From contig AP019755.1 in NCBI GenBank assembly GCA_006742785.1, positions 744,001 through 808,000 on the forward strand: a DNA stretch of 64,000 nucleotides, in the 5' to 3' direction. A model generated the notes under the pieces. The model saw only the letters and a list, made by a program, of their open reading frames with translations. It made no database searches and was not told the DNA's origin. Positions 20,161 through 48,204 of this stretch are shown here, one piece after another. The position numbers and the translations under genes are program-made. The number at the start of each line of letters is the position of its first letter. The stretch's first letter is position 1. The DNA comes from Nitrosomonas stercoris (GTDB lineage Bacteria > Pseudomonadota > Gammaproteobacteria > Burkholderiales > Nitrosomonadaceae).

Positions 20161-20196
20161 GGATATTTTTCTTGGCTACTAATAATCGATTACAAA

Positions 20197-20832: not shown

Positions 20833-20950
20833 GATTGTATAGGCTATAAAGGTTACATTTTAATAAAAGACACAAATTTATGCGTATTCTAGCAAGATTT
20901 GCCGGTTACAGTAAACGCTCCCATTTTATCCATCTCTATCCAACTGTGTG

Positions 20951-21553: not shown

Positions 21554-21720
21554 AGACGAGCCGAATCGGTTTTAATCGCACAAACAAAACCAAGAAATCA
21601 CCTAAATAACCAGCAAAGTAAGTGATTTTCAGAAAATGTCTCACTAAAAAGTTGCAGCTTGCTGCTTTTATAAATTAGTTAAAATACTTATCATGATGAT
21701 TCAAGTAAGTTGGAGTAAGC

Positions 21721-22527
21721 GTGGTTGTTCATATTAAAACAGCGCAGGAAATAGAAACCATGCGCATTGCAGGAAAATTAGCATCTGAGGTACTGGATTA
21801 TATCGAGCCGCATGTTATACCAGGTGTTACCACAGGCGAATTGGATGAGCTATGTCATCACTATATGGTGGATGTACAAAATACAATTCCTGCCCCCTTG
21901 AATTATGCACCACCAGGCCACCGCCCCTATCCCAAATCTATCTGTACTTCTGTCAATCATCAAGTCTGCCACGGCATCCCAGGCGAAAAGAAACTAAAAA
22001 ATGGAGATATCGTCAATCTTGATATCACAGTTATTTATAAGGGTTATCACGGTGATACCAGTCGTATGTACTATGCGGGTGAGCCTTCCATTCAAGCTAA
22101 GCGATTGTGCGAATTTACTTACGAAGCAATGTGGCGCGGTATAGAAACAGTAGGACCGGGCAAACACCTAGGCGACATTGGTTATGCCATCCAACGACTG
22201 GCCGAGAAAAATGGTTACGGTGTTGTTAAAGAATTCTGTGGGCATGGCATTGGCGCAAAATTTCATGAAGATCCACAAGTACTGCACTATGGACGCGCTG
22301 GTACTGGTATTGAACTTAAACCAGGCATGATCTTCACTATTGAACCCATGATTAACGCAGGAAAAGCAGCGATCAAACCACTCCCAGATGGATGGACAAT
22401 TGTTACCAAAGATCGCAGTTTATCCGCCCAATGGGAACATACCATACTGGTTACTGATACCGGTTACGAAGTATTAACGGTATCGGCAGGTACGCCAGCC
22501 AAACCAGACTACCAGTTCTCAACCTAA
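21721..22527 (+). CDS. map: Methionine aminopeptidase, type I
   Basis: Removes the initiator Met from nascent proteins. The two-metal ligands are visible: D in NLDITVIYKGYHGDTSR (two Asp), H in GHGIGAKFHEDP, E in FTIEPMINAG and E in QWEHTILV. Starts with GTG at 21721; GGAG lies 8 bases upstream. 268 residues, normal for type I. First of map-rph-rdgB-hemW on the plus strand. Confidence 0.96.
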   Translation: MVVHIKTAQEIETMRIAGKLASEVLDYIEPHVIPGVTTGELDELCHHYMVDVQNTIPAPLNYAPPGHRPYPKSICTSVNHQVCHGIPGEKKLKNGDIVNLDITVIYKGYHGDTSRMYYAGEPSIQAKRLCEFTYEAMWRGIETVGPGKHLGDIGYAIQRLAEKNGYGVVKEFCGHGIGAKFHEDPQVLHYGRAGTGIELKPGMIFTIEPMINAGKAAIKPLPDGWTIVTKDRSLSAQWEHTILVTDTGYEVLTVSAGTPAKPDYQFST

Positions 22528-22553
22528 CACCTTAAATACCTATTTATCTACTT

Positions 22554-23282
22554 ATGTCACGCCATAATCATCGCGCCCCGACGCAAATGCGCCCGATCAA
22601 CATAACTCGCCATTACACACGTCACGCAGAAGGCTCTGTGCTAATTGAATATGGTGAAACTAAAGTTATCTGTACTGCCAGCGTAATAGAAAAAATCCCG
22701 CCATTTCTCAAAGGAGCAGGACAAGGCTGGCTAACTGCAGAATACGGCATGCTGCCGCGTTCCACCGGTGAGCGCATGCAGCGTGAAGCAGCCAGAGGCA
22801 AACAATCTGGGCGCACCATGGAAATCCAGCGCCTCATTGGTCGAGCATTACGCTCCATTTTGGACCTGAAACAAATAGGGGAGCGTACTATCCAGATTGA
22901 TTGCGATGTCATTCAAGCAGATGGAGGAACCCGCACCGCCAGCATTACCGGTGCATTTGTTGCATTACACGATGCCATTGAATACTTGCGCACCCAGCAA
23001 ACGATTATAACCAATCCCATTCAGGATCAAGTGGCTGCTGTTTCGGTTGGTTTATTGCAAGGTCAGCCGCTATTAGATCTGGATTATATGGAAGACTCCA
23101 ATTGCGACACAGATCTCAATATTGTCATGACCGGTAATCTTGGCTTGGTGGAAGTACAAGGTACAGCAGAAAAGGTTGCTTTCAGCCGTCAAGAACTCAA
23201 TACAATGCTGGACATGGCACAACAAGGCCTACAGGAATTATTTGCATTGCAACGCAAAGTGCTTGCGGCAGTAGCTTCTTAA
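22554..23282 (+). CDS. rph: Ribonuclease PH
   Basis: Phosphorolytic 3'-exoribonuclease that trims tRNA precursors. The N-terminus ([22 protein letters not shown]) is characteristic. Further boxes are [16 protein letters not shown], the RNA-binding [16 protein letters not shown] and the phosphate/metal region [17 protein letters not shown]. 242 residues, full length, unlike the truncated K-12 allele. 26 bases after map. Confidence 0.96.
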
Positions 23283-23292
23283 GCAAAGAATA

Positions 23293-23898
23293 ATGACAGA
23301 TTCTCTGAAAAAAATTGTCATCGCCAGCAGCAATCCAGGTAAGCTTGTCGAAATTAGAAAGTTATTAGCTCCATTAGAAATTGAAGTAGTCACTCAAGCA
23401 TCGCTCGGCGTCACCGAAGCAGAGGAACCTTTTTCAACCTTTGTAGAAAATGCACTGGCTAAAGCACGTCATGCTAGTGCAGCAACTGGGCTACCAGCCC
23501 TAGCAGATGATTCAGGAATATGTGTTTATGCTTTGCAAGGTGCACCTGGTGTGTTGTCTGCTCGCTACGCAGGTGAACCGCGTTCTGATGAACGCAACAA
23601 CTACAAATTAATCACCACATTACAACAGCAGTCCGATCGCCGTGCTTATTACTACTGTGTCATTGTTCTGCTACGGCATGCACAAGATCCTCAGCCTGTA
23701 ATTGTTGACGCCACCTGGCAAGGAGAAATCATCCTTGAACCAAGAGGGCAAGGCGGATTTGGCTATGATCCCCATTTTCTTCTGCCACAGCTAGGTAAAA
23801 CTGCAGCCGAACTGCCCATGGAAGAAAAAAACAGCATCAGTCATCGCGGTAAGGCACTTGCCAAATTAGTACAGCAACTGATCAAATATAAGAACTAG
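23293..23898 (+). CDS. rdgB: XTP/dITP diphosphatase (non-canonical purine NTP pyrophosphatase)
   Basis: House-cleaning enzyme hydrolysing ITP, dITP and XTP. Signature parts are IVIASSNPGKLVEIRKLL at the N-terminus, TFVENALAKARHA, ADDSGICVYALQGAPG and, near the end, GGFGYDPHFLLP and SHRGKAL. 201 residues. Ten bases after rph. Confidence 0.95.
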   Translation: MTDSLKKIVIASSNPGKLVEIRKLLAPLEIEVVTQASLGVTEAEEPFSTFVENALAKARHASAATGLPALADDSGICVYALQGAPGVLSARYAGEPRSDERNNYKLITTLQQQSDRRAYYYCVIVLLRHAQDPQPVIVDATWQGEIILEPRGQGGFGYDPHFLLPQLGKTAAELPMEEKNSISHRGKALAKLVQQLIKYKN

Positions 23899-23932
23899 TT
23901 ATTATTTGATTGATCACAACTCATTTGTCCGC

Positions 23933-25189
23933 ATGAAAAAAGCAACGCCAGTGTTATCTCTATCTACTTCTGCCTCAACATCACCCCGCTTGACAGAGCT
24001 TCCTCCCTTAAGTCTTTATATCCATCTACCTTGGTGCGTTAAAAAATGTCCGTATTGCGACTTCAATTCGCATGCTATCAATGCTGACAAGACCTTTCCT
24101 GAAGCTGAGTATATTGTAGCCCTCAAGCGTGATTTGGAATTATCTCTTCCTCTAATCTGGAGACGCCCTATTACCAGCGTATTTTTTGGAGGAGGCACAC
24201 CCAGTTTGTTTAGTGGCGCTGCCATTGAAGAAATACTCTCCTATGCGCGTATGTTGCTATCTTTCGCACTCGACATTGAAATTACACTGGAAGCCAATCC
24301 AGGCACGCTGGAAGCGCAAAAATTTGTAGATTTTCGATCAGCAGGCATTAATCGACTATCCATCGGCATTCAAAGTTTCAACCCCAAGCACTTGCAAGCC
24401 TTAGGACGCATTCATAACGAAACAGAAGCAAAGCGCGCCATAGAACAGGCACAGCCACATTTTGACAACATCAACCTGGATCTGATGTACGCCCTGCCCG
24501 AGCAAGCACTAGAGGAAGCACAGCAGGATATCAACACAGCCTGCAGCTGGGGCGTTGCACATCTTTCTGCTTACCATTTAACTCTCGAACCCAATACATG
24601 GTTTTATCGCCATCCTCCTAAGTTGCCCGATGAGGATATTGCTGCGGATATGCAAATAATGATCGAGCACACACTAGCCGAAAAAGGCTACCAACACTAC
24701 GAAACTTCTGCATTTGCGCAACCAAGAAAAAGATGTATGCACAACCTGAATTATTGGCAATATGGCGACTACCTAGGAATTGGAGCAGGTGCGCATAGCA
24801 AGATTAGCTTTCGCGATAAAATTATCCGACAAATGCGCCATAAACATCCTCGCCATTACATGGAGCAAGTAATGGCACAAGATGCACATCTTGACGACTT
24901 AATCGCCACCGAACACACCGTCACTTCGCAAGATCGTAGCTTTGAATTCATGATGAATGCTCTGCGCTTAACAGATGGCTTTGACCCAAGATTGTTTCAC
25001 GCACACACCGGCTTAACAATTTCTTCCATCCAACAACAACTCACCACTGCTGAAGAAAGAGGATTCGTCGACTGGCAACATGATTGCATCCGACCAACAA
25101 CCAACGGACGAAAATTTCTAAATGATCTGCTCGAAATTTTTCTACCAGAACAAAAACAAAGCAACCATTCACACAGAACGCAACCATAA
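23933..25189 (+). CDS. hemW: HemW-like radical SAM protein (haem chaperone)
   Basis: Radical SAM protein of the HemN/HemW family. The cluster motif is CVKKCPYCDF (CX3CX2C) near residue 42, and GGGTPS and LDLMYALPEQ follow. The HemW-type C-terminal region (HNLNYWQYGDYLGIGAGAHS) and the lack of HemN's long N-terminal part favour HemW, a haem-trafficking factor, over an oxygen-independent coproporphyrinogen oxidase. I start at ATG 23933 (418 residues); the TTG at 23906 is in frame but less likely. Last gene of the map-rph-rdgB-hemW run. Confidence 0.9.
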   Translation: MKKATPVLSLSTSASTSPRLTELPPLSLYIHLPWCVKKCPYCDFNSHAINADKTFPEAEYIVALKRDLELSLPLIWRRPITSVFFGGGTPSLFSGAAIEEILSYARMLLSFALDIEITLEANPGTLEAQKFVDFRSAGINRLSIGIQSFNPKHLQALGRIHNETEAKRAIEQAQPHFDNINLDLMYALPEQALEEAQQDINTACSWGVAHLSAYHLTLEPNTWFYRHPPKLPDEDIAADMQIMIEHTLAEKGYQHYETSAFAQPRKRCMHNLNYWQYGDYLGIGAGAHSKISFRDKIIRQMRHKHPRHYMEQVMAQDAHLDDLIATEHTVTSQDRSFEFMMNALRLTDGFDPRLFHAHTGLTISSIQQQLTTAEERGFVDWQHDCIRPTTNGRKFLNDLLEIFLPEQKQSNHSHRTQP

Positions 25190-25298: not shown

Positions 25299-26780
25299 TC
25301 AGGGCAACCTATTCATCAGCTCTTTAAAACTACTCAACCCAGCTTCCAGGTGCTCAACGATTTTTTCAGCAAGTTCGTCCGGCTCAGACAAGTTATCTAA
25401 ATCCGTTAGGCTTTTATCGCGTAGCCAAAAAATATCCAAACTGGTTTTATCACGCGCAATGAGTTCTTCGTAACTGTATTTACGCCAACGGCCATCGGGG
25501 TTGTTTTCTTCATGCCAAGTTTCAGTGCGCGCATGAATATTTTCAGGGTTATAACACGCAATAAAATCGGTTAAATCTTCATAGCGCATCGGCGAACGCT
25601 TGAGCGTGTGGTGAATATTGGTGCGGTAATCGTAGAACCAAACCTCTTTTGTCCAAGGCTCTGGGCTGGCGGGTTGGTTATCAAAAAACAACACGTTGGC
25701 TTTTACACCTTGCGCATAAAAAATACCTGTTGGCAGGCGCAAAACAGTGTGCAGGTTGGTATTTTCTAATAGCTTTTTGCGGATAGTTTCGCCCGCACCG
25801 CCTTCAAACAACACGTTATCTGGCACCACCACAGCAGCTTTGCCTGTGGTTTTTAGCATACTGCGAATATGTTGCACAAAATTAAGCTGCTTGTTCGAGG
25901 TCGTCGCCCAAAAATCTTGACGGTTATAAGTGAGATCTTCGGTTTCTTGCTCGCCTTCTTCATTGGTAAAACTCATCGAGCTTTTCTTACCAAACGGCGG
26001 ATTAGCCAGCACATAATCCACGCTGATCGGGCTAGGCGCTATCAACGCATCGTTAGGGGAAACCAAGCTTTCACCGTCAATTTCGCCGATGTTATGCAAA
26101 AACATATTCATCAAACACAGGCGGCGCGTGTTGGCGACAATTTCATTGCCATGAAATGTCTGGTGCTTTAAAAAATGCTTTTGTTCTTTATCGAGCTGAT
26201 AATTTTTTGCATCACTTAAAAAATCATACGCCGCTAAAAAGAAACCACCGGTACCGCAAGCAGGGTCGGCGATGGTTTTATTTGGCTCTGGGCGCACACA
26301 TTCCACCATGGCGCGAATTAAAGAGCGTGGCGTAAAATATTGCCCCGCACCCGATTTTGTATCTTCGGCATTGCGCTCTAAAATGCCTTCATAAATATCG
26401 CCCTTAACATCAGCGCCCATCACCAGCCAACTGGTGCTGTTAATCATGTCGATTAAGCGAAACAGCTTGGCGGGATCTTGAATCTTATTTTGTGCTTTGG
26501 TGAATATTTGCCCCAACATGCCTTGGCGTTTGCCTAGCTCGCGCAAAATTTCCACATACAGCACTTCCAGCTCGGCGCCTTTTTTGCTGGTTAGCGCTTG
26601 CCAGTTATAACGCGCAGGTATGCCCACATCGCGGTTATAAGGCGGCTTGCTATATTCATCCGCCATTTTCAAAAAAATAAGGTAAGTGAGTTGCTCTAAA
26701 TAATCGCCATAGCCCACGCCGTCATCACGCAAGGTGGTACAAAAACTCCAAACACGGGAAACGATGGAAGCGGTATTCAT
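25299..26780 (-). CDS. hsdM: Type I restriction-modification system, N6-adenine methyltransferase subunit
   Basis: Methylates adenine within the HsdS-defined site and forms the core of the restriction complex. It has an N-terminal HsdM helical domain (RVWSFCTTLRDDGVGYGDYLE), the SAM-contact region GQYFTPRSLIRAM, motif I (ADPACGTGGFFLAAYD) and motif IV (VLANPPFGKK, the NPPF catalytic box). 493 residues, intact. It is last in the minus-strand cluster, separated from hsdS by three other genes and an insertion element, so its transcription may be reduced. Confidence 0.95.
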   Translation of the reverse strand: MNTASIVSRVWSFCTTLRDDGVGYGDYLEQLTYLIFLKMADEYSKPPYNRDVGIPARYNWQALTSKKGAELEVLYVEILRELGKRQGMLGQIFTKAQNKIQDPAKLFRLIDMINSTSWLVMGADVKGDIYEGILERNAEDTKSGAGQYFTPRSLIRAMVECVRPEPNKTIADPACGTGGFFLAAYDFLSDAKNYQLDKEQKHFLKHQTFHGNEIVANTRRLCLMNMFLHNIGEIDGESLVSPNDALIAPSPISVDYVLANPPFGKKSSMSFTNEEGEQETEDLTYNRQDFWATTSNKQLNFVQHIRSMLKTTGKAAVVVPDNVLFEGGAGETIRKKLLENTNLHTVLRLPTGIFYAQGVKANVLFFDNQPASPEPWTKEVWFYDYRTNIHHTLKRSPMRYEDLTDFIACYNPENIHARTETWHEENNPDGRWRKYSYEELIARDKTSLDIFWLRDKSLTDLDNLSEPDELAEKIVEHLEAGLSSFKELMNRLP

Positions 26781-26803
26781 GTCAAAATCTCTTGGTTAGT
26801 TCT

Positions 26804-28024
26804 CTACAAATAGGTTAAAGGCAAAGCGACTAAATTTTCTGCCAACCAAAGCTTTTGCGGATATTGGTTAATTAATGTTCCATGAGCAATAGTTAACTCG
26901 TCGGCGGGTAGGTGATTGCGCAATACATCAAACGCTTTAGCCATTTTTTTAGTTGGGTTGGCAGTAATTTTTATTTCAATAGGGTACAAGATACGCCCAT
27001 CTTCAATAATTAAATCAATTTCTTTCTGATCGTTATCGCGATAAAAGTAAAGCGGGGGTTCTTTTCCTTGATGGTAAAAAGACTTGATAATCTCGCTTAC
27101 CACAAAGGTTTCAAAAAACTGCCCGCTTTTTGCCCCCTGCTGTATTGTTTCAGGCGTTAACCATTTCGTCAGCCACGCCATTAAACCGGTATCCAGCATA
27201 TAAACCTTGGGCGTTTTAATGGCGCGTTTAAGGTGATTATTGGCATAAGGCTGCAACAAATAAATAATGCCCGACGTTTGTAAAATATTGACCCAGCGCT
27301 TGATGGTATCCACCGATACGCCGACATCCTGCGCTACTTTATTGTAATTAAGCAGCTCGCCACTGCGTGCGGCAATGGCCACCATAAAGCGGGTGAAATC
27401 TAAACTGCTGCTAACATTGGCTATGTGCCTCACATCACGCTCAATGTAAGTGGCAACGTAAGACGCATAGTAAGTGTGCCAATCAGTTTCTTGCTGATAC
27501 AGCCTTGGCATATAACCTTGATGAATGGTTTGCCACAGCGCATGGGCTTTAAGCGGGCATTGCTCGCGTTGCTGCAAATACGCGGCACTAGGAATAAAAG
27601 GCAAAGCAAAATCGTTTTGTTCTATTTCCCGTAAAGATAAACCCGACAACTTTAAAATGGCCACACGCCCCGCCAAGGTTTCACTCATATTTTGCATTAG
27701 CTCAAACGCTTGCGAACCCGACAGCAAAAACAGGCCATTTCGCTGTTGCTTATCTATGGCTAATTTTAAGAGCGAGAACAGTTCTGGGGCGTATTGCACC
27801 TCATCCAAAATGACGTTCTCGGGATAGTTTAATAAAAATAACTGCGGCTCTTGCTTAGCTTGAGCAAGCAACAAAGGGTCATCAAAACTGACATACACAT
27901 AATCTTGAGCGACATGCTGCAACAAGGTCGACTTGCCCACTTGCCTAGGGCCAGTCACCAAAACCGCAGGGAATTGCTGCATCAAAGTACGAAGCCTGTT
28001 GTGCAAATGACGAGGAATATACAT
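26804..28024 (-). CDS. AAA+ ATPase with DUF4143 domain
   Basis: A 406-residue protein of the large AAA_14/DUF4143 group. Walker A is GPRQVGKSTL near residue 26 and Walker B NVILDEVQYAPELF near 70; GLFLLSGSQAFEL is the sensor strand. The C-terminal half has a winged-helix piece (YNKVAQDVGVSVDTIKRWVNIL) and a nuclease-like beta strand set (KEIDLIIEDGRILYPIEIKI: D, then E-x-K spacing). Members are common accessory genes in defence islands; the role is unproven. 23 bases upstream of hsdM, same direction. Confidence 0.85.
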   Translation of the reverse strand: MYIPRHLHNRLRTLMQQFPAVLVTGPRQVGKSTLLQHVAQDYVYVSFDDPLLLAQAKQEPQLFLLNYPENVILDEVQYAPELFSLLKLAIDKQQRNGLFLLSGSQAFELMQNMSETLAGRVAILKLSGLSLREIEQNDFALPFIPSAAYLQQREQCPLKAHALWQTIHQGYMPRLYQQETDWHTYYASYVATYIERDVRHIANVSSSLDFTRFMVAIAARSGELLNYNKVAQDVGVSVDTIKRWVNILQTSGIIYLLQPYANNHLKRAIKTPKVYMLDTGLMAWLTKWLTPETIQQGAKSGQFFETFVVSEIIKSFYHQGKEPPLYFYRDNDQKEIDLIIEDGRILYPIEIKITANPTKKMAKAFDVLRNHLPADELTIAHGTLINQYPQKLWLAENLVALPLTYL

Positions 28025-28054
28025 AATAAATTGCGTGTGATTTACGATTGCATC

Positions 28055-28327
28055 TTAATATAAACGAAGTATGAGTGGCGCGTCTAGTGAAAGACTGAAT
28101 TTATACACCAAGTGACGAAAAGCGTAACTTAATGTGCAATTTAGCGCTTGGCAGCGTAAGCGTATTAAAAAATAAGTGCGGTCTTCGTCGGTTTCAAAGA
28201 TAGGTTTAGGCGAGCCGTTGCGTGCCATTTTTTCAAATATTTTCGGTAAACCAGTGGAGCGGCCTTCGGTTAAATCCAGCTCTTTTAAAAACTCGCCAAT
28301 GCGGCGATTACGATAACGACGGCTCAC
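28055..28327 (-). pseudogene. C-terminal remnant of an AlbA_2/RecG-like ATP-binding regulator
   Basis: About 60 codons retain the conserved tail of the AlbA_2-domain 'putative DNA-binding/ATP-binding' family: RRYRNRRIGEFLKELDLTEG, RSTGLPKIF, NGSPKPIFETDEDRTYFLIRL. The upstream catalytic portion is missing, because mrr ends at 28332 and the reading frame just before is out of phase. The last 30 codons to 28055 do not resemble the family. The frame formally opens with TTG at 28354. Such genes are frequent neighbours of type I systems, so this is most likely a deletion remnant. Confidence 0.65.
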
Positions 28328-28331
28328 TGAA

Positions 28332-29234
28332 TTATTCAAAATAATCTGAATCAAGCGAGGGTACTTTTAAGGTGCGTGATGTTACACCCACTTCGGTGTC
28401 CATCATCAAGTTCACTAAACGCTCACCATCAATTAACACAATACCTTCAACAGATTTTGCAAAATCTAGCGCCTGCGCAGTAAAAGCAGAGGTGGTAATA
28501 AACACTCCTCGCTTGGCTTTTTGACCCGCTAACGCACCATAAAAAGCTTGCAGCTCTGGACGACCGACCGTGCCTTGCCAGCGTTTTGCCTGTACATAAA
28601 CTTTTTCTAAACCCAGCTTATCTAAAGAAATAACGCCATCAATACCTGCATCACCACTACCGCCAACGCGCTGTAAATCTTGTCGGCTAATGCCGTAGCC
28701 CAAACCATGCAACACATCTAAAACAATGACTTCAAAACGACTGGGTGTGACGGCTAGCAATACCTCTAATAACTCGCCTGCGGTGGCTTGTCGCAATGCT
28801 TGCAAAGCTTGCTCTAATTGATCATCGGGGCTGGCTTGCCCACTTAACGGCTCATCAAAAACGGCCGCTTTATTATCTTCTGCTGCTGAAAGGCCGTCGT
28901 AGTAGCTATTGGCAATACGCTGTATTTCATCTTCTACAATAGCTCCAGAGTTTTGCTTGATATAAACAACCCCCTCTTTGCTTAACTGCCATAAACCACG
29001 GCGAGGACTAAAAGATAAGCCTACGCGCTTTAGTCGATCATGTGCCCAGCCGCAACGATTTTTGTAAACGGCTTGCCCACTGCTTAATAACTCTGAGCGC
29101 TGCTCTTGCGTTAATTGCAAATAATCTGCAGCCGCATCATGCACTTCAGCAGCGCGTAACCCTTCAGGATACTGCTGCAAAATCCGTAAGATAGGTTCAA
29201 TAAACTGGTCATAAGTAGGAAGTGAGATATTCAT
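28332..29234 (-). CDS. mrr: Mrr-type restriction endonuclease
   Basis: A 300-residue protein with an N-terminal winged-helix Mrr_N domain (about 1-95) and a C-terminal PD-(D/E)xK nuclease domain (about 160-285). The active-site string is visible as GSGDAGIDGVIS, then VYVQAKRWQG (D and Q-x-K). Mrr enzymes cut methylated DNA, or act as IV-type partners. Its place between hsdS and hsdM on the same strand is like other composite defence loci. Intact. Confidence 0.88.
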   Translation of the reverse strand: MNISLPTYDQFIEPILRILQQYPEGLRAAEVHDAAADYLQLTQEQRSELLSSGQAVYKNRCGWAHDRLKRVGLSFSPRRGLWQLSKEGVVYIKQNSGAIVEDEIQRIANSYYDGLSAAEDNKAAVFDEPLSGQASPDDQLEQALQALRQATAGELLEVLLAVTPSRFEVIVLDVLHGLGYGISRQDLQRVGGSGDAGIDGVISLDKLGLEKVYVQAKRWQGTVGRPELQAFYGALAGQKAKRGVFITTSAFTAQALDFAKSVEGIVLIDGERLVNLMMDTEVGVTSRTLKVPSLDSDYFE

Positions 29235-29591
29235 AAAAACCTAAACTATTTGTTTTGTTCGCTACAAGAGTTTGCGTACCCAATATAATTAAACAGCAGT
29301 GCTGCACAACATCTGACCGTTTTCCTCTGCCACACCAAATCTAAGATTATCGAAGGTGAATGACATTTAGCTCTCTCTTGTTAAAGTTAACTTTCCCGAA
29401 AATGCTTTTTTAAGTATCGATTGTCGTAGTAGTTCTGCTTTGGCTAAAGCGCTTTCGATTTCTTTTTCGTTTTGTTCGATGATGGAGAGTTTTTCTTCGA
29501 GTATTATTACCAATTTATCGGCTTCCTTTTGTGTTATTACGGGCACTAAGAGCCCGTTTACGATCTCATCATTATTCCTTACGATACGTGG

Positions 29592-29957
29592 ATGAAGAGA
29601 ACAAAATATGCCAGTGATATTAGCAAAGAGAAGTTTGCCGAGATAGAGCCGCTATTGCGTAGCGTGAGGCGCAGCACCAAACCCACGACAATAGATTTGT
29701 ATGAAGTATTTTGTGCTGTGCTGTATCTGCTGCGTACTGGTTGCCAGTGGAGATTTTTGCCCGGAGAGTTTCCCAAATGGCAGAGTGTATATGCCTATTG
29801 GCGCAAATGGAATGAGCCTGACCAGCACGGCGTGAGCGTGCTGGAGCAGGCATTAAAAAAATCAGGTTGGCGCGGCCCGAGAGAAACTGGGGCGCAACGC
29901 TTGCAGCACGTTCTTGATTGTGGACGCGCAAAGCGTGAAGAATACAGACACGGCTGA
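29592..29957 (+). CDS. IS5-family transposase, first frame (copy A)
   Basis: 121 residues, beginning M-K-R-T-K-Y-A-S-D-I, containing the N-terminal region of the DUF4096-type transposase (DLYEVFCAVLYLLRTGCQWR then FPKWQSVYAYWRKW). The catalytic domain lies in the next frame. The two overlap by 44 bases. A run of seven A (in codons for L-K-K) lies just upstream of the overlap and could be a slippage point; to join the frames the ribosome must move +1 (or -2). Confidence 0.85.
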   Translation: MKRTKYASDISKEKFAEIEPLLRSVRRSTKPTTIDLYEVFCAVLYLLRTGCQWRFLPGEFPKWQSVYAYWRKWNEPDQHGVSVLEQALKKSGWRGPRETGAQRLQHVLDCGRAKREEYRHG

Positions 29958-30390
29958 CCAGAAAGGCTATGACGCCGGCAAGAAGGTGTCGGGCATCAAG
30001 CGCCATATCGCTGTTGATACCTTGGGGTTGCCGCACGCCATTGCAGTGACGACAGCGGAAGTGACTGACCGTAACGGTGCATTGCAGGCCTTGAAGCGTT
30101 GCAGATCGAGTTTGGGACAAGTGCAAGGTTTGCTGTGTGACGGTGGCTATACTGGAGCACCATTTGCCGAAAGTGTGCAAGAAATTCTGGGCAAACCTGT
30201 CACCGTGCAGATCGCCAAACGCAGCAAACTGCATACCTTCAAGGTTATGCCCAGGCGCTGGATAGTGGAACGTAGTTTCGCCTGGCTGGAAAAGTGCCGA
30301 AGATTATGGAAAAACTGCGAACGTAAACTTGATACCAGCTTGCAGCTCATTCATTTGGCTTTCTTGGCACTATTACTCAGAAGATCGTAA
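29914..30390 (+). CDS. IS5-family transposase, second frame (copy A)
   Basis: 158 residues forming the DDE catalytic domain. The three acidic residues can be placed: D in IVDAQSVKN, D in LLCDGGYTG, E in IVERSFAWLEK. Further family strings are KGYDAGKKVSGIKRHIAVD and AVTTAEVTDR. About 84% identical by eye to the second frame of copy B (25 differences in 158). No good start codon of its own (TTG at 29914), consistent with expression by frameshift from the first frame. Confidence 0.87.
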   Translation: MIVDAQSVKNTDTADQKGYDAGKKVSGIKRHIAVDTLGLPHAIAVTTAEVTDRNGALQALKRCRSSLGQVQGLLCDGGYTGAPFAESVQEILGKPVTVQIAKRSKLHTFKVMPRRWIVERSFAWLEKCRRLWKNCERKLDTSLQLIHLAFLALLLRRS

Positions 30391-31705
30391 ACAGGCTCTA
30401 AGATGTTTGATACCTTAGTTAAGCTCAATGTGTGCAAACCAGAGGTTGAGCTGGCCTCATTAACAATAAAATCGCGTCCAACAGGTGAAAGCAAAAAGTA
30501 TAAAATTAACTTTGCATAAGAAGCATTGTGGAGCCTTGCTCTGATTAGGTGGTTTTGATGGCCACATTCTTGAATAGCACCATTCCACAGTGCTACTCTT
30601 CCAATTTGCTCAATGCTTCCATTGCCTTCCACAACCAAAAGATCGTTTTTCTCTAAGAAAATTGTTTCCCTTTCTTGTACTGTCACGCCAATTGTTTTGA
30701 CCTCATCTAATCGCAGCTCGTTAGCATAAACATTGGCAACTCGTAGGTAAGGAATTTGTATACCGTATGAGTTTCGCTTTTGATTCTTCGTGAGCCCACC
30801 CGTTACATTTGATATTCCGCCAAGATTCACGGCTAGCCAACCTTCATTAAAAACATGATCACTGAGCTCAATTTCTTTAAATTCCCTCGGTTTGCTCGGC
30901 TTTTTGCCTTCTTTACCTTTTGCTTCCCAGTCTTTAACGGCTTGCTTCCATTCTTCTAATTGTTGCTGGTAGCGGGTTTCGCGTTCGGTTTGGATGCGAG
31001 CGAGGAGTTGTTCTGGGGTTTCTAGTTTATCGGCGTTGTCTTTGCGCCATTGTTCGGTGAGCTTACCTTCAAAGGCATGTTTGAGTAGGGCTTGGCGGTA
31101 GATTTTTAGTTGTTCGCGGGCGGTTTTTAGGGAGGCAATGCCGCTGTCGAGCTCTGAAAAGAGTTCTTCGATTTTGGCAACGATGCGCTTTTGTTCAGAA
31201 AGTGGCGCCAATGGAACCATTAATTCAGAAAAGCGACCATGCGTAAGGTTCAAGCCGCTATCACTAATCCCTGTTTTCATAGAATCAATGGCGCGCTGCG
31301 CTTGATGAGACCGAATGAATCCCTCCAGATATTTTGAATCTAAAAGCGTACTGTTTGGTCTGAAACGGTACATTTTTCCTGACATCAGAAGTTTGGAACG
31401 TGTTTTTTTTACGAAGCACACGACGCCACAGCGATTTCTCGGCCCTGCACACGTCATCAATATGTCGCCTTTAACTACTTCTAGGTGAGGTCTTGGCTCA
31501 ATTGACTCTGGAAGCTCCTTATTTTCATGGCCCCAGAACTCACCATCTTGAATGGCAGTGGTTTTTAATACCCCCCAACAATTTTCTGAAGCTGGATGAT
31601 TATGGCACTGAGGGCTCCACCCTTGTTGGAAAGGTTTTCCATTTGAATTTTTGTCTAGTAATTCGACAATTGATACCCAAGACCATGATTTAGGAAGTTG
31701 ATTCA

Positions 31706-34513
31706 TCACGCTACCAACTCCCGATTCATCACTTCAATAACCCAATCCATCTTATCTCCAAATAATTGATACATGCGCCCTAGGCCGCCTTGGGCATCAA
31801 AGGGTGTATTGTCGAGGTCTTCACGTTCAAAGTGCGTGGAGTCGGTAATGTGGTCGCGTATTAAACGCAGCCATGCCATTTGTTGTTCATTAAACTTTTC
31901 TCTATCGCCTGCGTGGTATTGCATGATCCAGCTTTGAAAGTTTTTGCGCACGGTGGCATCAAACGGCGTAATGCTGCTATCAATGCCACATACGCGGCGA
32001 ATTAAGGCAACTAAAGCAGTTAGCTCGGCAACGGGCGTGGTGCCTTTATAGCTATCGAGGTGTGCGTAGGCTTGCCACACGCGCAACGGCGCAAGTTTGG
32101 GGCGCTCTTGTTTAATCACATCCAACAAGGTTTTGATTTGTAAATAAGTGACTTCGCTACGCCGTGCGGGGGTATGAAAATAAATAGTTAACGCATCAAT
32201 GTTATCCGCTTGCTCAGTTAAATAGTCGGCAAACTCTTGGGTGAGTGCTTGGGCGTTTTCCTCGGTATCGCCTGCCCATTCGGCCTTTACCAGCTTGTCT
32301 AAATCGTCATGCACTACGGTTTGTTCTTTATCGCGGCGAATGCTGTCAATCAGCTCTATCAGTTCGCCGTTAAATACTTTGGCCACTTCGCCCACCAGTT
32401 CAGCTTGAGCTTTGTCGCGGTTAGCATCTCCAGGATCGGCACCTTCGGGCAAGCCTGCAATGTCTAGGGCTTTGCGCTCTACGTTATCGCCGTCGATGGC
32501 GTTAAATAGCTCGCCAACAATGGTTAATAAAGGCACGCCGCCTGCTTTTTCGGCTATTCGGGCGCGTTCTTTATCATCCAGTTGTTTATCAAGGCGCGCT
32601 AAGCGCCCCGCTAAAGACGACACGGTATCGCTGTCGCTGGCGCCCATCATCACGCCCATGGCTAAATCTTTCAGCGCGACAGTCGGTTTGGTAATTAACG
32701 GGCGGCTGGCGGTTTTGATGGATTTGGTTACGCCGATGGCATCGACAATCACATAGTGGGTTTTAGCACTTTGTGCGGAGGGCGTGACTTTTTGCAGGTT
32801 ATCTTTATCCAGCGTACGGGTGCCACGGCCCTTCATTTGTTCAAAATAGTTTCTGCTTTTTACATCGCGCATAAACAGCAAGCATTCCAGCGCTTTAACA
32901 TCGGTGCCGGTGGCAATCATATCGACGGTCACGGCTATGCGCGGGTAATAGTCGTTGCGTAGCTGCGCCAGAATGGTGGCAGGGTCTTCACCTTTTTCTA
33001 ATACCTTGCCTTCGGTATCGAGTTTGTCGTTGGCTACGCGGTAGGTGACTTTTTTACAGAATTGGTTACTGCCGCCAAACTCTTCACGAATAATTTGGAT
33101 GATGTCATCGGCGTGGCTGTCGGTTTTGGCAAACACTAAGGTTTTGGGCACTTCTGCTCGGCCAGGAAACATTATCGGTAGCGAATTTTTAAAGGTGCGG
33201 ATGACCGTGCGAATTTGGTCGGGGTTAACAATGTCGCGGTCGAGTTGTTTAGCGCTGTAGGCTTGCTCTTCGTCTTGCATCTCCCAGCGCTTGCGCCGTG
33301 TGGTGCGTTCGCGCTTTTCAACCTGCTGCTTGGCGGTAATGGTGCCGCCTTGTAGTGTTTTTTCTGTTTCGATAATGAACACTTCGTTACCTACGTTGAC
33401 GCCATCGGCGACGGCTTTTTCATGGCTGTATTCACTGACGACATTCTTACGGAAAAAACCAAACGTACGCGCATCAGGGGTAGCGGTTAAGCCAACGAGA
33501 TACGCATCAAAATACTCAATCACCTGCCGCCAGAGGTTGTAAATAGAGCGATGGCATTCGTCGATAATAATGACGTCAAAAAATTCGGGGGGAATTTTGG
33601 CGTTATACACCACGGGTAAAGGCTCTTTCGGCTTGGTGAGTTGTTCAGCGGGGTTTTGCTCTTCCAGTGATTCATCTAATGGCTCATCTTTGAGCATGGA
33701 ATACATGCGCTGAATGGTGCTGATATACACTTGGGAGTCGGTGCTGATGTGTGCGCTTTTTAGGCGCTGCACACTGTATAGCTCGGTGAATTTACGGTTG
33801 TCGTCGTTAGGCACAAAGGTCATAAATTCTTGTTCGGCCTGCTCGCCTAAGTTTTTGGTATCCACCAAAAACAAAATGCGTTTAGCGCTCACGGGCTCTT
33901 TGAGTAAACGATAGCTGGCCGTTATAGCAGTAAAGGTTTTACCTGCGCCCGTGGCCATTTGAATTAACGCGCGTGGCCTGTCGTCTTTAAGTGATTGTTC
34001 CAGATTGCTGATGGCGTTTATTTGGCAATCGCGCAGCCCTTCGGTGGGCAAAGGTGGCATGTCTTGCAAGCGAGCACGAAAGCTTTTGGTTTCGCGTAAC
34101 CAGCTTGCTAAGGATTCTGGGCGGTGGAAATTAAATACTTCGCGTGAGCGTGGGTTGGGATCGGCGCCATCGGTAAAGCGCGTGATAACGCCCGTGCTTT
34201 CGTAAACAAAGCGCAATGGTTCTTTATTGTGTACCCACTTTAAGCTGGCGTTGGCATAGCCTTGGGATTGCTCTTCTACTGTGGTGATTTTTTCGCCCCA
34301 GGATTCAGGCTTGGCTTCAATCACGCCTACGGCTTTTTTGTCCACAAACAGTACGTAATCAGCGGGGCCTACATCGGTTTGGTATTCGCGTACGGCAATG
34401 CCTTGGCCCATGGCAAAGTTTATTTTATTTTTGTTTTGAACTACCCAGCCAGCTTCAGTCAGTATTTGGTCAACATTATCGCGGGCAAGTTGTTCTGAAG
34501 TTTTATTAGCCAT
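31706..34513 (-). CDS. hsdR: Type I restriction endonuclease, R subunit
   Basis: DNA-translocating nuclease subunit, 935 residues, intact. The N-terminal nuclease domain shows D-V-G-P-A-D-Y and VIEAKPE (PD-(D/E)xK). Helicase motifs follow: IQMATGAGKTFTAI (I), IDECHRS (II, DECH), VGLTATPD (III), and SYFEQMKGRGTRTL region (VI). The C-terminal third is the EcoEI-type HsdR_C domain, suggesting a type IB-like enzyme. First gene of the cluster; the hsdS start overlaps its stop by 4 bases. With hsdS broken, target-directed cutting is unlikely unless another HsdS is supplied. Confidence 0.95.
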   Translation of the reverse strand: MANKTSEQLARDNVDQILTEAGWVVQNKNKINFAMGQGIAVREYQTDVGPADYVLFVDKKAVGVIEAKPESWGEKITTVEEQSQGYANASLKWVHNKEPLRFVYESTGVITRFTDGADPNPRSREVFNFHRPESLASWLRETKSFRARLQDMPPLPTEGLRDCQINAISNLEQSLKDDRPRALIQMATGAGKTFTAITASYRLLKEPVSAKRILFLVDTKNLGEQAEQEFMTFVPNDDNRKFTELYSVQRLKSAHISTDSQVYISTIQRMYSMLKDEPLDESLEEQNPAEQLTKPKEPLPVVYNAKIPPEFFDVIIIDECHRSIYNLWRQVIEYFDAYLVGLTATPDARTFGFFRKNVVSEYSHEKAVADGVNVGNEVFIIETEKTLQGGTITAKQQVEKRERTTRRKRWEMQDEEQAYSAKQLDRDIVNPDQIRTVIRTFKNSLPIMFPGRAEVPKTLVFAKTDSHADDIIQIIREEFGGSNQFCKKVTYRVANDKLDTEGKVLEKGEDPATILAQLRNDYYPRIAVTVDMIATGTDVKALECLLFMRDVKSRNYFEQMKGRGTRTLDKDNLQKVTPSAQSAKTHYVIVDAIGVTKSIKTASRPLITKPTVALKDLAMGVMMGASDSDTVSSLAGRLARLDKQLDDKERARIAEKAGGVPLLTIVGELFNAIDGDNVERKALDIAGLPEGADPGDANRDKAQAELVGEVAKVFNGELIELIDSIRRDKEQTVVHDDLDKLVKAEWAGDTEENAQALTQEFADYLTEQADNIDALTIYFHTPARRSEVTYLQIKTLLDVIKQERPKLAPLRVWQAYAHLDSYKGTTPVAELTALVALIRRVCGIDSSITPFDATVRKNFQSWIMQYHAGDREKFNEQQMAWLRLIRDHITDSTHFEREDLDNTPFDAQGGLGRMYQLFGDKMDWVIEVMNRELVA

Positions 34514-34894
34514 GCGTTAATTCTTTCAAGTGTTATAGGAATTTTCCAATTATTTGTATGATCGAGTAAAGCCTACATTCTGGACAAACTATTGACTCAA
34601 ACTGAGCTTCTTGGAGCAAAACCACTGAACTATCCTAACTATTTTTATATAAATCATATTGTCGATAAACTTCCATATTTTTAAAGATTATCAATATTGT
34701 TTTAGCATAAAAAAATATGTCCAGATAGCCATACGTAAGAATAATGATGGAATTACTCTAGCTATCAAGATTATTTGCATCACGTGTTAAACAAGTTTTG
34801 GCAAAAGCACCTATTTCTTGTGGCAACTAGCAAAACTTGTGCTACAGGAATTTATGAGTAGCCGCAATATTCGATTTACTTTGAATGGTTTCCT
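34514..34894. other. AT-rich upstream region of hsdR, no gene seen
   Basis: 381 bases between the hsdR start and the hexamer array. AT-rich; it should contain the hsdR promoter. Short inverted bits such as AGCAC ... GTGCT (34807-34852) occur but form no strong hairpin. Confidence 0.5.
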
Positions 34895-35047
34895 CACAAT
34901 CACAGTCACAGTCACAATCACAGTCACAGTCACAGTCACAGTCACAGTCACAGTCACAGTCACAGTCACAGTCACAGTCACAGTCACAGTCACAGTCACA
35001 GTCACAGTCACAGTCACAGTCACAGTCACAGTCACAGTCACAGTCAC
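34895..35047. repeat. Hexanucleotide tandem repeat (CACAGT)n, about 25 copies
   Basis: 153 bases built almost entirely of CACAGT. The first and fourth units read CACAAT and the remainder are perfect, so variants are confined to the left edge. Five of six frames are open through it: Thr-Val, Ser-Gln and His-Ser repeats on the plus strand, Thr-Val and Cys-Asp on the minus. It sits 382 bases upstream of hsdR and about 420 bases past the tRNA 3' end. The unit is two codons long, so copy-number change would not shift a frame. Confidence 0.97.
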
Positions 35048-35465
35048 TAATAAGCTTATTACGCGCGAAATTGGTCAAAAACCAAAGTGAAGAATGCTGC
35101 TATTTTCTGGTACTAATAAACGAAAGGTGGAGATGGGCAGATAACATCTGCAGCAGATGGAGCGTTCAGGGGTGAGATTTCGACAAAGGCCGCAATGTAA
35201 ACACAAAGCTGTTTGAATCGTGATACGCTCAGAGCATTGCAAATGCTGCACTCTATAAGCACTTCATCCTATTTATTTGTGGATATGCAACAACTCGATT
35301 TCGATGCTATGTTTCATGTAGGCAGTGCAGCCATAGCAGTTAGTTATTATCCCGTTGCTGCTGATAATTGTCTGTCAGATGATATTAGAAGAATTCGACG
35401 TAGCTATGAGCCCAACAGGGCTCATGTACTGTGCTGCTATCATCAAAAATCTAACCAAGAGGAAA
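35048..35465. other. Region between hexamer array and tRNA, no gene seen
   Basis: 418 bases without a convincing gene. A perfect 8-bp hairpin (arms ATGAGCCC 35406-35413 and GGGCTCAT 35418-35425, loop AACA) lies about 41 bases past the tRNA 3' end. It lacks a T-run, so it could be a processing or weak termination signal. Confidence 0.45.
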
Positions 35466-35542
<77 letters not shown>

Positions 35543-35569
35543 TGAAGCTAGAGTTACTGTGAGCGCCTA

Positions 35570-35575
35570 ATTATA
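35570..35575 (-). promoter_or_regulatory. Possible -10 box for the tRNA gene
   Basis: TATAAT on the minus strand, 28 bases before the tRNA 5' end and just after the rpoD stop. No clear -35 hexamer at the right spacing, so the tRNA may instead be read through from rpoD. Confidence 0.3.
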
Positions 35576-35596
35576 ATTGAATTTTCAAATATATTA

Positions 35597-37804
35597 TTAG
35601 GAACTTTCGCTATCCAGGAAACTGCGCAGCCGATCAGATCGTGCCGGGTGTCTTAATTTTCTTAGTGCTTTTGCTTCGATTTGACGAATGCGTTCACGTG
35701 TCACATCGAATTGCCTGCCCACTTCTTCCAAGGTATGGTCGGTATTCATTTCAATACCAAAGCGCATACGCAATACTTTCGCTTCTCGAGGAGTCAATGA
35801 ATCCAGAATATCTTTGGTCACCGTACGCAATCCAGCATAGATGGCAGCATCTGCTGGCTCCATGGTTGCGACATCCTCAATAAAATCACCCAGATGAGAA
35901 TCTTCATCATCACCAATGGGCGTTTCCATTGAGATCGGTTCTTTTGCTATTTTAAGAATTTTCCGGATTTTATCTTCGGTCATTTCCATTTTTTCAGCCA
36001 GTACTGCTGGTTCTGGCTCTTGTCCGGTTTCCTGCAAAATTTGACGAGAAATGCGATTCATTTTGTTGATCGTCTCAATCATATGCACCGGAATACGGAT
36101 AGTGCGTGCCTGATCCGCAATTGAACGCGTAATTGCTTGGCGGATCCACCAAGTTGCATAGGTTGAAAACTTATAACCACGTCGATATTCAAATTTATCC
36201 ACAGCTTTCATCAATCCGATGTTGCCTTCCTGGATCAGATCCAAAAACTGCAATCCGCGATTGGTATATTTTTTAGCAATCGAGATAACCAAACGCAGGT
36301 TGGCTTCAATCATTTCACGCTTGGCGCGACGTGCTTTAGCTTCGCCCGTCATCATGCGGCGATTGATTTCTTTCAATTCTTTAATGGGAATACCAGCCTG
36401 TTCCTGCAGCTCCAGCATTTTCTTCTGCTGTTCCATAATCACTGGACGAAAATGCTCCAACGCCTGGCTATATGCATGACCAGCATTGACTTCTGTATCA
36501 ATCCAATCAATATTGGTTTCGTTCCCTGGAAAAGTCTTGATAAAATAGCTACGCGGCATTTTTGCTCGCACAACACACAGATTCGCTATTTTTCGCTCAC
36601 AACCACGAATATCACTCACAATATCACGCTGCGTATCACATAGTTTTTCAACCATCTTGGCAGAAAAACGCATCATCATCAGCTCAGCAGAGATTTTTTC
36701 CTGTAGTTGCTTATACGCTGCGTCTCGACGCCCATCTTTGTTTTTATCGATGATCTTCTTCATATCATCGTAGGTCTGTCGAATAACAGTGAAGCGCTCC
36801 AATACTTCCTGCTTCATTTTCAGCATAGCTGCATTGGCTGATGCAATTCGTTCTTCCTCGGTTTCCTCAAGATCAGAATCTTGATCTGATTTAGCCGCTT
36901 TTTTGCCTATCAGGTCATCTGCTTCATCATCCAGAAAACCATCAACCAGCTCATCTGCTCGTAATTTCTCGTTTTCTACATCTGCAGCGAGCTCAAGTAT
37001 ATTTTCTATAATAGTCGGGCAAGCAGAAATGGCACGAATCATATGCCGTAACCCAGCTTCGATCCGCTTGGCAATTTCTATTTCACTTTCACGTGTCAGT
37101 AGCTCTACCGTCCCCATTTCACGCATATACATACGGACTGGATCTGTAGTGCGCCCAAATTCTGAATCCACACTGGAAAGAGCAGCTTCCGTTTCTTCAG
37201 CAACATCTTCATCAGCAACCGCGGTGGCCGTGTCTGACATCAGCAAATCTTCTGCATCGGGCGCTTCATCGTGCACTGAAATACCCATGCTATTGATTAT
37301 GCCTATGACACTTTCCATTTGATCTGTATCCAGCATATCGTCTGGCAGATGATCATTAATTTCGGCATAGGTTAAATAACCACGTTCTTTGCCGAGTATA
37401 ATCAGCTTCTTCAAGCGCATTTTGCGGGATTCAACATCACTGCCGGCAGGGGATGAAGCAGCACTTTTAGCTGATTCGGTAGCCTGTTTCTCTGCTGAGG
37501 AATTTTTGCCTTTTTTACCTACTTTATCTGTTTCTGAAAGATTGACAGATTCAGCTTCTTTCAACTCCGACGAAACTTTGTCCTGCTTAGCAATAGGATC
37601 CGTCTTTTTGACTGTTTTTTTCTTGGTAGCCGTCTTTTTCTTAACTACAACTGTTTCTGGTTTAGTCATCAAATCCTCGTCGACAGCAACGCCAGCCTTT
37701 TTACTGCTAACACTGCTAGTCGTGCGTGTTTTTTTATTTTTTACTTCTGCCGATTTCTTTGATGTAGCTGTTTTAGTTGACCCCGAAACCTTTGCTTTTG
37801 TCAT
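35597..37804 (-). CDS. rpoD: RNA polymerase primary sigma factor (sigma-70)
   Basis: Housekeeping sigma factor. A long Lys/Ala/Thr/Ser-rich N-terminal extension (about residues 1-120) precedes region 1.1. Then [19 protein letters not shown] (1.2), a large non-conserved region, region 2 ([19 protein letters not shown] then [14 protein letters not shown]), region 3, and region 4 ([20 protein letters not shown]). I start at ATG 37804 with AGGTGGG upstream, giving 735 residues; a GTG at 37813 is in frame. It ends the macromolecular-synthesis order rpsU-yqeY-dnaG-rpoD. Confidence 0.97.
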
Positions 37805-37977
37805 GCAGAGCACCCACCTATTAAAACTAAAGATAAAACGAACCGAAAGCTTGCTAGTATATCAAATTTTTCGCATATTTATAACAAAGACCATAAAACC
37901 ATTGTTTATTACCTGATTACTATGCTGCAATTCATGCTATTTTAAACCTCCAAATTTTGCTAACTCGTTACCACTAT

Positions 37978-41987: not shown

Positions 41988-42596
41988 TCAAGATGAACTG
42001 CTTTTACCTATTTTGGTTTCTTTGCCAGCCAGTAAATTTGCTATGTTTGAATGATGTTTGATAATCAGCAAGGCGGATAACAGCAGCACAGTCAGCACAA
42101 ATATTTCCTGCTCTAGTAAGAAATAGGCATACACGGGAGCAAGTAATGCTGCCAATAAGGCAGATAAGGAAGAAATACGAGAAACCAACGCCACCACTAA
42201 CCAAGTTAGAATAGTCAGCAGCCCTAACCAAGGATTTAATCCGAGCAATACACCCGCTGAAGTAGCCACCCCTTTCCCCCCCTTGAATCTAAGAAAAATC
42301 GGAAATAAATGGCCTAAAAATACTGCCAATGCCATGCCGGCAATTACTTCATTGCCCAATCCCTCGGTATTGCTCCAATACCTGGCTATCACCACAGCCA
42401 ACCAGCCTTTTCCGGCATCGCCTAGCAGGGTAATAATGGCCGCTGCTTTTTTGCCTGTACGTAATACATTGGTAGCACCCGGATTGCCAGAACCATAACT
42501 ACGTGGATCAGGTAATTTGAACAGCCAGCTAGCAACAACAGCAAAGGAAACCGAGCCCAGCAGATAGGCAGCAATAATTAAAATAATTGTAACCAT
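41988..42596 (-). CDS. plsY: Glycerol-3-phosphate acyltransferase (acyl-phosphate dependent)
   Basis: First step of phospholipid synthesis, using acyl-phosphate. 202 residues with about five membrane helices. The three family motifs are [37 protein letters not shown] and a later loop. The unusual feature is only the long C-terminal tail after the last helix. Convergent with tsaD, 15 bases away. Confidence 0.95.
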
Positions 42597-42821
42597 CTAA
42601 ATTTTCATATTCCAAAGGAGTTTTTGGCAGGTTATCTTAGTTGTGTAACTTAACCTATCTATTACGCACAAATTCTATTTTTCATTGATCTTGCTTTGGG
42701 CTGATAGCTTCACCAATGTTTCTCAAAGATTCTCTAATCCATTACACTTGTACGATTTTGTACACAGCTAACACACAACAAACAGATTTTTCTGTCTCTT
42801 CACTTTAAGCAAGTTCAACGT

Positions 42822-43181
42822 ATGGATATTATCTTTCTCAAGGAATTTAGAGTAAAAACTTTAATTGGTATTTATCCATGGGAAAAGAAAATTCCACAAA
42901 CAATTGAATTAAATATTGAAATCGCCTTACCTTCCCAGCAAGCTAGCCAAACCGATCACATTGAAGATGCGTTAGATTACTCAAAAGTTGTCGACAAAAT
43001 CAATTCAATGCTTGCGCAACAGCATTTTTCTTTGCTTGAAACGCTAACAGAACATATCGCACAAATGATACTGAATGAATTTGGCTCTCCCTGGGTAAAA
43101 ATTAGCGCGGCCAAACTGAATGTCATTCCAGGCGTGAAACAACTGGGTATTTGTATCGAGCGCAGCCAATCACATCATTAG
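42822..43181 (+). CDS. folB: Dihydroneopterin aldolase
   Basis: Folate pathway enzyme (7,8-dihydroneopterin to 6-hydroxymethyl-dihydropterin). 119 residues. Family features are FRVKTLIGIYPWEKKIPQTI at the start, ALDYSKVVDKI, and FSLLETLTEHIAQMIL containing the pterin-binding Glu. Lies opposite plsY; the 225-base gap before it holds no other feature I can name. Convergent with queC. Confidence 0.94.
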   Translation: MDIIFLKEFRVKTLIGIYPWEKKIPQTIELNIEIALPSQQASQTDHIEDALDYSKVVDKINSMLAQQHFSLLETLTEHIAQMILNEFGSPWVKISAAKLNVIPGVKQLGICIERSQSHH

Positions 43182-47327: not shown

Positions 47328-48204
47328 GATAGTAAACAGTAAGGTTCAAATTACGAAAGGCGTTAAACAATCCTGCATCGGGTGGTAAAGGCAATGGTTT
47401 AGCCAAATAGATAGCTCTTTCCACCGCTTCATCAAACACGGGATAGCCGCTTGATTGGCGCAATGTTACCGCTAGAACATCTCCACCTGGTAACAAAGTA
47501 ACCATAAATTCAGCCGCAGGATCACCTGGAAGATCAGGTGGCATGATAATTCGATTGCGGATTTTGGCTTGAATCATGGCCTTATATTTCTCAATTTCAC
47601 CAGCAGCTCTAGCTTGGGCAGCCGCAGCGGCACTATCTTGTTTATACTGCGTTGGCTGCTGTTTTATTTCCGCTGGTTGCTGAGCCATCTCTTTTTGTTC
47701 CGCCTTCGGCTCAATTTTTTTAACCGGATCAGGCTGCTTAACTTCCTCTTTAACTTTAGCGACAGGCCGCACAGGTTTGTGTGCGGGTTTCTTAACAAGT
47801 TTTTCTAGCCGCGCTTCTTTTTTGATTGGTTCCGATTTTTTAGCTTCTTTCTTGGGCGCTGATTTTTCCTTATCATCTTTCAGTTCGATATCAGGTTTGC
47901 GCGTGGCAGACGGCGTGGGCGTTTGCGGCACAGGCTGCGGCTGTGGTTCTGGTTCTGGTTCTGGTTGAACGACTTTTTCTGTTTTGGATGGTGGGCTCGT
48001 TTTTTTTGTCACCGCAGGTACTGGTGTAGATGGCGCGGAAGCAGGTAGCTCTGCCCATAGATCGACGGATATTGCTTCCGACACCTCGTTCTTCCAATTT
48101 ACCCCAAACACCAAAATAACCAGTAATACCACGTGAACCAGCACAGCAAGTACAGCCGCCCGTACTTTGCCCGGTTCACTGTTATGTTGTGGTAGCTGAA
48201 CCAT
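47314..48204 (-). CDS. tolA: Tol-Pal system protein TolA
   Basis: Inner-membrane protein spanning the periplasm. Single membrane helix at about 15-35 (VLAVLVHVVLLVILVFGV). The domain between about 60 and 205 is rich in Lys, Glu and Pro (long helical or extended spacer), and the C-terminal domain (about 210-296) shows MVTLLPGGDVLAVTLRQSSG and FDEAVERAIYLAKPLPLP, the TonB-like fold. 296 residues, a short TolA. Overlaps tolB. Confidence 0.94.
   Translation of the reverse strand: MVQLPQHNSEPGKVRAAVLAVLVHVVLLVILVFGVNWKNEVSEAISVDLWAELPASAPSTPVPAVTKKTSPPSKTEKVVQPEPEPEPQPQPVPQTPTPSATRKPDIELKDDKEKSAPKKEAKKSEPIKKEARLEKLVKKPAHKPVRPVAKVKEEVKQPDPVKKIEPKAEQKEMAQQPAEIKQQPTQYKQDSAAAAAQARAAGEIEKYKAMIQAKIRNRIIMPPDLPGDPAAEFMVTLLPGGDVLAVTLRQSSGYPVFDEAVERAIYLAKPLPLPPDAGLFNAFRNLNLTVYYHEKF

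Follow-up and report, generated by a model that had tools for sequence, protein, structure and literature searches.

The stretch of the Nitrosomonas stercoris genome analysed here (64,000 nucleotides, referred to as the window) carries a tandem array of a six-base unit between a type I restriction cluster and a tRNA gene. The features around the array, each with the program or comparison on which it is based, are as follows.

25299 to 26780, minus strand: hsdM, methyltransferase subunit (Pfam, PADLOC)
30351 to 31709, minus strand: hsdS, specificity subunit (Pfam, PADLOC)
31706 to 34513, minus strand: hsdR, type I restriction subunit with ResIII, EcoEI_R_C and HSDR_N (Pfam, PADLOC)
34514 to 34893: left flank, between hsdR and the array, 31.8% GC (base composition)
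34854 to 35090, plus strand: hypothetical small ORF through the array, (TV)n, within a TTG-started frame at 34818-35090 (ORF scan)
34894 to 35047, no strand assigned: hexanucleotide array (TCACAG)25.7 (Tandem Repeats Finder, unit list)
34894 to 34917: left edge of the array, units 1-4, with TCACAA as units 1 (34894-34899) and 4 (34912-34917) (unit list)
34918 to 35047, no strand assigned: perfect part of the array, 21.7 copies (perfect-run scan, unit list)
35048 to 35465: right flank, between the array and the tRNA (DNA search of relatives and plasmids)
35466 to 35542, minus strand: tRNA-Met(CAT), 3' end toward the array (Rfam)
35597 to 37813, minus strand: rpoD, the conserved neighbour of the tRNA (Pfam, matches in relatives)

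Moving away from the array on one side, the gene order is hsdR, hsdS, transposase frames, an Mrr-type nuclease gene, an AAA/DUF4143 gene and hsdM, and on the other side tRNA-Met(CAT) is followed by rpoD and dnaG. The position between a defence cluster and a tRNA, as described in an earlier reading made from the sequence alone, is therefore correct. The array lies on the upstream side of hsdR, 381 bp from its start. The transposase frames belong to the IS4/5 family and occupy 29592-30390, between hsdS and the mrr-like gene and about 4.5 kb from the array. Inside the hsdM, hsdS and hsdR region (25299-34513), Tandem Repeats Finder reported no tandem array above a score of 40.

Tandem Repeats Finder placed the array at 34894-35047 with a period of 6, 25.7 copies, 97% matches and a score of 294, and reading it unit by unit gave 25 full units plus a partial TCAC. 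The sequence-only reading had described about 25 copies of CACAGT at 34895-35047; the array and its right end are as it stated, and the start lies one base further left. Its observation that variants are confined to the left edge also held, as every unit other than 1 and 4 is TCACAG. From base composition alone, the expected number of such perfect runs in 64 kb has a log10 of about -69, so that these near-identical short units in tandem, far beyond chance, identify the array as a microsatellite. No other such array occurs in the window, again in agreement with that reading, the next hexanucleotide tract being TGGTTC at 3.8 copies (47944-47966, Tandem Repeats Finder). Searching for the unit elsewhere in the genome had been proposed as a check, and an exact 18-mer of three TCACAG copies gave 19 matches, all overlapping inside 34894-35047, which makes this the only array of its unit in the 2.38-Mb genome. 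The assembly consists of two contigs of 2,320,919 and 61,451 bases; for 12 kb of the second contig the best match was a Nitrosomonas eutropha C91 plasmid (82.5% over 56%).

Conservation was assessed in 60 relatives, with one genome per species. The exact 18-mer was found in none of them, a search in which arrays of two copies or fewer are not detectable, and this pattern is that of a lineage-specific expansion. The left flank, queried as 34400-34893, likewise had no DNA match in any of the 60. A query covering 35048-36200 matched all 61 genomes, our own included, through the tRNA and rpoD, and among the matches listed none in a relative begins before about position 35448. Neither flank had a DNA match in plasmids. 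Homologous hsdR genes were compared at seven loci (L386-L392, in G010, G020, G016, G008, G017, G038 and G018), where the main piece is 44-69% identical and the G008 and G018 loci are broken or split; with about 1.5 kb upstream scanned, none of the seven had a unit of 4-12 bases repeated beyond 3.0 copies. Because the flanks have no match in relatives among those listed and the seven hsdR loci carry no array, the array is, on these comparisons, no standing part of the restriction system.

The 3' neighbours of tRNA-Met(CAT) vary from species to species. In G017 and G012, the counterpart of window positions 20196-25151 adjoins the tRNA in the opposite orientation, so that this block, which holds hemN and what we take to be rph and rdgB, is inverted relative to the tRNA in our genome. 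Sequence matching 41998-43167 adjoins the tRNA in G021. In six of 20 relative loci (six of 15 when only those extending 5 kb or more beyond the tRNA are counted), a further copy of 41-50 bases from the tRNA 3' end lies at a distance of 5.5-11.3 kb. Such repeats are what elements integrating at a tRNA would leave, which makes this tRNA-Met(CAT) next to rpoD a possible hot spot of integration. Together with the rearranged tRNA neighbours, they make the site of the array look like a rearrangement-prone junction. No repeat of the tRNA 3' end was found in the 64-kb window itself, so that arrival of the restriction cluster through an attachment site at the tRNA is unsupported here.

Perfect period-6 runs of at least five copies were then counted in 864 kb of the same genome, a sample covering 36% of it, and there were three: the spacer array, CAGATA at 14.3 copies and GGGTTG at 9.2 copies. 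The (CAGATA)14.3 tract (L247:7212-7297, C1:307212-307297 of the genome) is in frame and encodes a (DT)n tail at the C-terminus of LptA; it stops a little short of an ABC-transporter gene, presumably lptB. The tract was missing in all 23 same-genus LptA loci; the 24th same-genus relative searched, G004, gave no LptA match. The GGGTTG tract (L206:4845-4903, C1:124845-124903), of about 9.2-9.8 copies, is in frame as (GL)n in a gene for a ParE-like toxin, which scored 22.8 bits, just below the Pfam cut-off of 23, and adjoins an addiction-module antitoxin gene (59.2 bits). Among the ParE-like alignments listed, 10 of 11 homologues have no extra GL units, and the alignment of the 11th (L342) begins past the tract. 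The scan that took in these ParE-like loci covered 758,185 bases of overlapping stretches, our own genome among them, so that the bases are not independent, and it ignored runs of N in G028. A nonanucleotide at 3.9 copies lies just after the stop of the toxin gene.

Relatives differ in their simple repeats. In 420 kb of G035 there are three tetranucleotide arrays (17.8, 7.2 and 7.0 copies) and a nonanucleotide at 9.1 copies; the 415 kb of G017 contain a single heptanucleotide array, at 9.9 copies, and period-6 runs there stay below three copies; and in the 416 kb of G020 no 4-12 base unit reached five copies. Long simple repeats of several unit lengths thus occur in these genomes, and in our own they are mainly hexanucleotides. 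Runs of the TCACAG unit were seen at 154 or more loci elsewhere (120 genome stretches and 34 viral), with the longest at 13.8 copies, a lower bound: L126, one of the two 13.8-copy runs, starts at the edge of its locus, and the runs in L042, L117 and L043 also touch locus ends. Against at least 13.8 copies among the loci listed, 25.7 copies is long for this unit. A match in Nitrosomonas mobilis (L037) was set aside as unrelated in position, being a short tract of His/Asp-rich type at a contig end.

These results make it probable that the array is a hexanucleotide microsatellite which sits in a non-conserved spacer next to a tRNA gene and has recently grown through slipped-strand mispairing. A replication-slippage hot spot had been among the options raised by the sequence-only reading, and it gained support from the lineage-specific expansion and from the two further hexanucleotide expansions in the sample. 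Slipped-strand mispairing would have lengthened the array in this lineage, with the perfect right part the younger and the variant left units an older edge. Repair through Escherichia coli MutS is reported to extend to loops of four nucleotides at most (PMC5427490), and six-base slippage loops would by extension escape it. Loss of mismatch repair was ruled out as the cause of expansion because the open frames of MutS1 (879 aa, 1078.8 bits) and MutL (613 aa, 590.3 bits) are full length and free of stops. DNA folding of the perfect part gave -18.5 kcal/mol (z -8.4) for its minus strand and no fold for its plus strand. The imperfect hairpin predicted for the minus (CTGTGA) strand may favour growth of the array, but it is weak evidence, as the centroid is unpaired. 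A hairpin-forming strand shared by all three tracts was ruled out as a general cause, since neither strand of the CAGATA and GGGTTG arrays folds.

The choice of a six-base unit is a separate matter. Within genes it would also spare the reading frame, which fits the lptA and ParE-like tracts well, and we accept the point made by the sequence-only reading that a unit of this length cannot shift a frame. The spacer has no frame constraint, so frame preservation does not explain the unit there, and the six-base unit of the spacer array may be a coincidence. Given the tetra- and nonanucleotides of G035 and the heptanucleotide of G017, unit length in the genus as a whole cannot be predicted from the MutS limit or from the frame; loops of four bases fall within the stated limit, which leaves the tetranucleotide arrays of G035 unexplained by it. 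An array formed in this way would behave as a variable-number locus, and most likely it has no specific function and little or no effect on hsdR.

A regulatory role for the array, as a cis-acting rheostat whose copy number alters hsdR transcription, is unlikely. It could work by moving upstream elements by about half a helical turn per unit or, if transcription continues from a co-directional rpoD-tRNA unit into hsdR, through a long hairpin that would form in the leader RNA. The setting is compatible with this to a degree: dnaG, rpoD, the tRNA and hsdR all lie on the minus strand, terminator-like sites numbered 0 in 34300-35700 compared to 1.1 in shuffled sequences, and as minus-strand RNA the array is predicted to adopt a strong hairpin (-50.2 kcal/mol, z -10.0). 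There are also parallels, in the (GCCA)17.8 array that ends 20 bp before the hsdM start in G035 and in the T-tract of Helicobacter pylori sabA, an intergenic, promoter-proximal simple repeat reported to act as a rheostat (PMC4081817). However, the sabA tract adjoins a -35 element, whereas our array is not beside a recognisable one: promoter-like sites in 34300-35700, all of them predictions, are at chance level (5 found compared to 3.6 expected), and the closest is about 125 bp away. With 381 bp between array and hsdR start, and none of the seven homologous hsdR loci carrying an array, the link to hsdR through promoter spacing that the sequence-only reading had put forward was not borne out, and an effect on hsdR is possible but unsupported. 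A further simple repeat near a type I system, the pentanucleotide tract of Haemophilus influenzae, is reported to lie inside the hsdM ORF (PMC2651432); the array here instead lies outside hsdR and has a unit that cannot shift a frame.

It is very unlikely that the array is a coding tract that gives a small expressed protein its low-complexity stretch, (TV)n or (SQ)n when read from the plus strand. The frame at 34854-35090 does start at an ATG with AGGA a few bases upstream, and the two other long hexanucleotide tracts found in the genome are genic. Yet open frames are expected through such a unit and both strands are open, no Pfam family reaches its curated cut-off for this ORF, and the flanks have no DNA match in plasmids, nor in relatives among the matches listed. 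Least credible of all is an assembly artefact with an inflated copy number. The array was read from the assembly alone, but this assembly has two contigs, units 1 and 4, being variants, define a genuine edge, and two different hexanucleotide arrays stand elsewhere in frame in open genes.

Several other identities were considered and rejected. The unit is 6 bp with no spacers and Rfam found only the tRNA in the window, which excludes a CRISPR, iteron or integron array. A mobile-element part was dismissed on the grounds that the flanks are unmatched in plasmids, the genome holds no second copy of the array and the transposase frames lie at a distance. Protein binding, another option raised by the sequence-only reading, gained no support: a pattern search for CRP-type sites found the array itself again and was uninformative on binding. 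The consensus of a CRP-type site is an inverted arrangement, and the unit offers TCACA half-sites in direct orientation only, so that a full inverted site is not readable in it.

As a kind, the array is a known one, a microsatellite, and what is new is this array as a further example. It resembles bacterial microsatellites or VNTRs with a hexanucleotide unit in its short perfect tandem units and degenerate edge. Among 10 hexanucleotide repeats reported from four H. influenzae genomes, 8 lie in ORFs, this class is without evidence of phase variation, and the non-coding example TTAAAA has two to three units (PMC2651432); the array here is longer than that example. A 6-bp repeat in mutL of Salmonella typhimurium and E. 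coli, described as a switch, gains and loses units in frame by slipped-strand mispairing (PMC2955026). The lptA and ParE-like tracts are comparable to it in having six-base units in frame. They differ in that the mutL repeat has three copies and a known phenotype, whereas the tracts here have 9 to 14 copies and are known from sequence alone; the spacer array differs further, the mutL repeat being coding and the array running through a hypothetical ORF. PMC4692102 describes reports on bacterial repeats with units of 6-9 nt as rare. Searching for Nitrosomonas together with repeats matched few papers, none naming repeats of the genus in its title or the opening of its abstract, by which we do not claim that none is published; the word Nitrosomonas does not occur in the main text of PMC12699852 or PMC4692102.

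By itself, the array is mostly a strain marker, and a caution that a repeat close to a defence gene need not be a regulator. More weight lies with the wider pattern: in a genome whose mutS and mutL frames are intact, a 36% sample holds three hexanucleotide expansions, two of them in frame in recognisable genes, and the set of in-frame tracts is a more interesting lead than the spacer array. It raises the testable question of whether six-base units expand by passing mismatch repair while sparing the frame. That the three tracts (the (DT)n tail of LptA, a (GL)n loop of the ParE-like toxin and the spacer before hsdR) are MutS-invisible, frame-preserving loci for quantitative tuning is quite unlikely; if they were, changes in length would adjust envelope transport, toxin activity and restriction without on/off loss in an ammonia oxidiser that is probably free-living.

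Individual repeats in relatives add some minor observations. The heptanucleotide of G017 is (GGTTGCG)9.9 at L425:10514-10582, and only short frames run through it. G001 has an 82-base run of C (L225:2344-2425) about 1.3 kb or less from a contig end, possibly an assembly artefact. G010 carries (TTGGAC)8.7 at L351:1520-1571, in frame in an ArsP-type permease gene, where it encodes an LG repeat close to the N-terminus. A short frame opening upstream, with its ATG at about 11068, spans the (GCCA)17.8 array of G035 (L270:11080-11150); read by eye, its stop overlaps the hsdM ATG in the present phase, an arrangement that could possibly provide phase-variable translational coupling.
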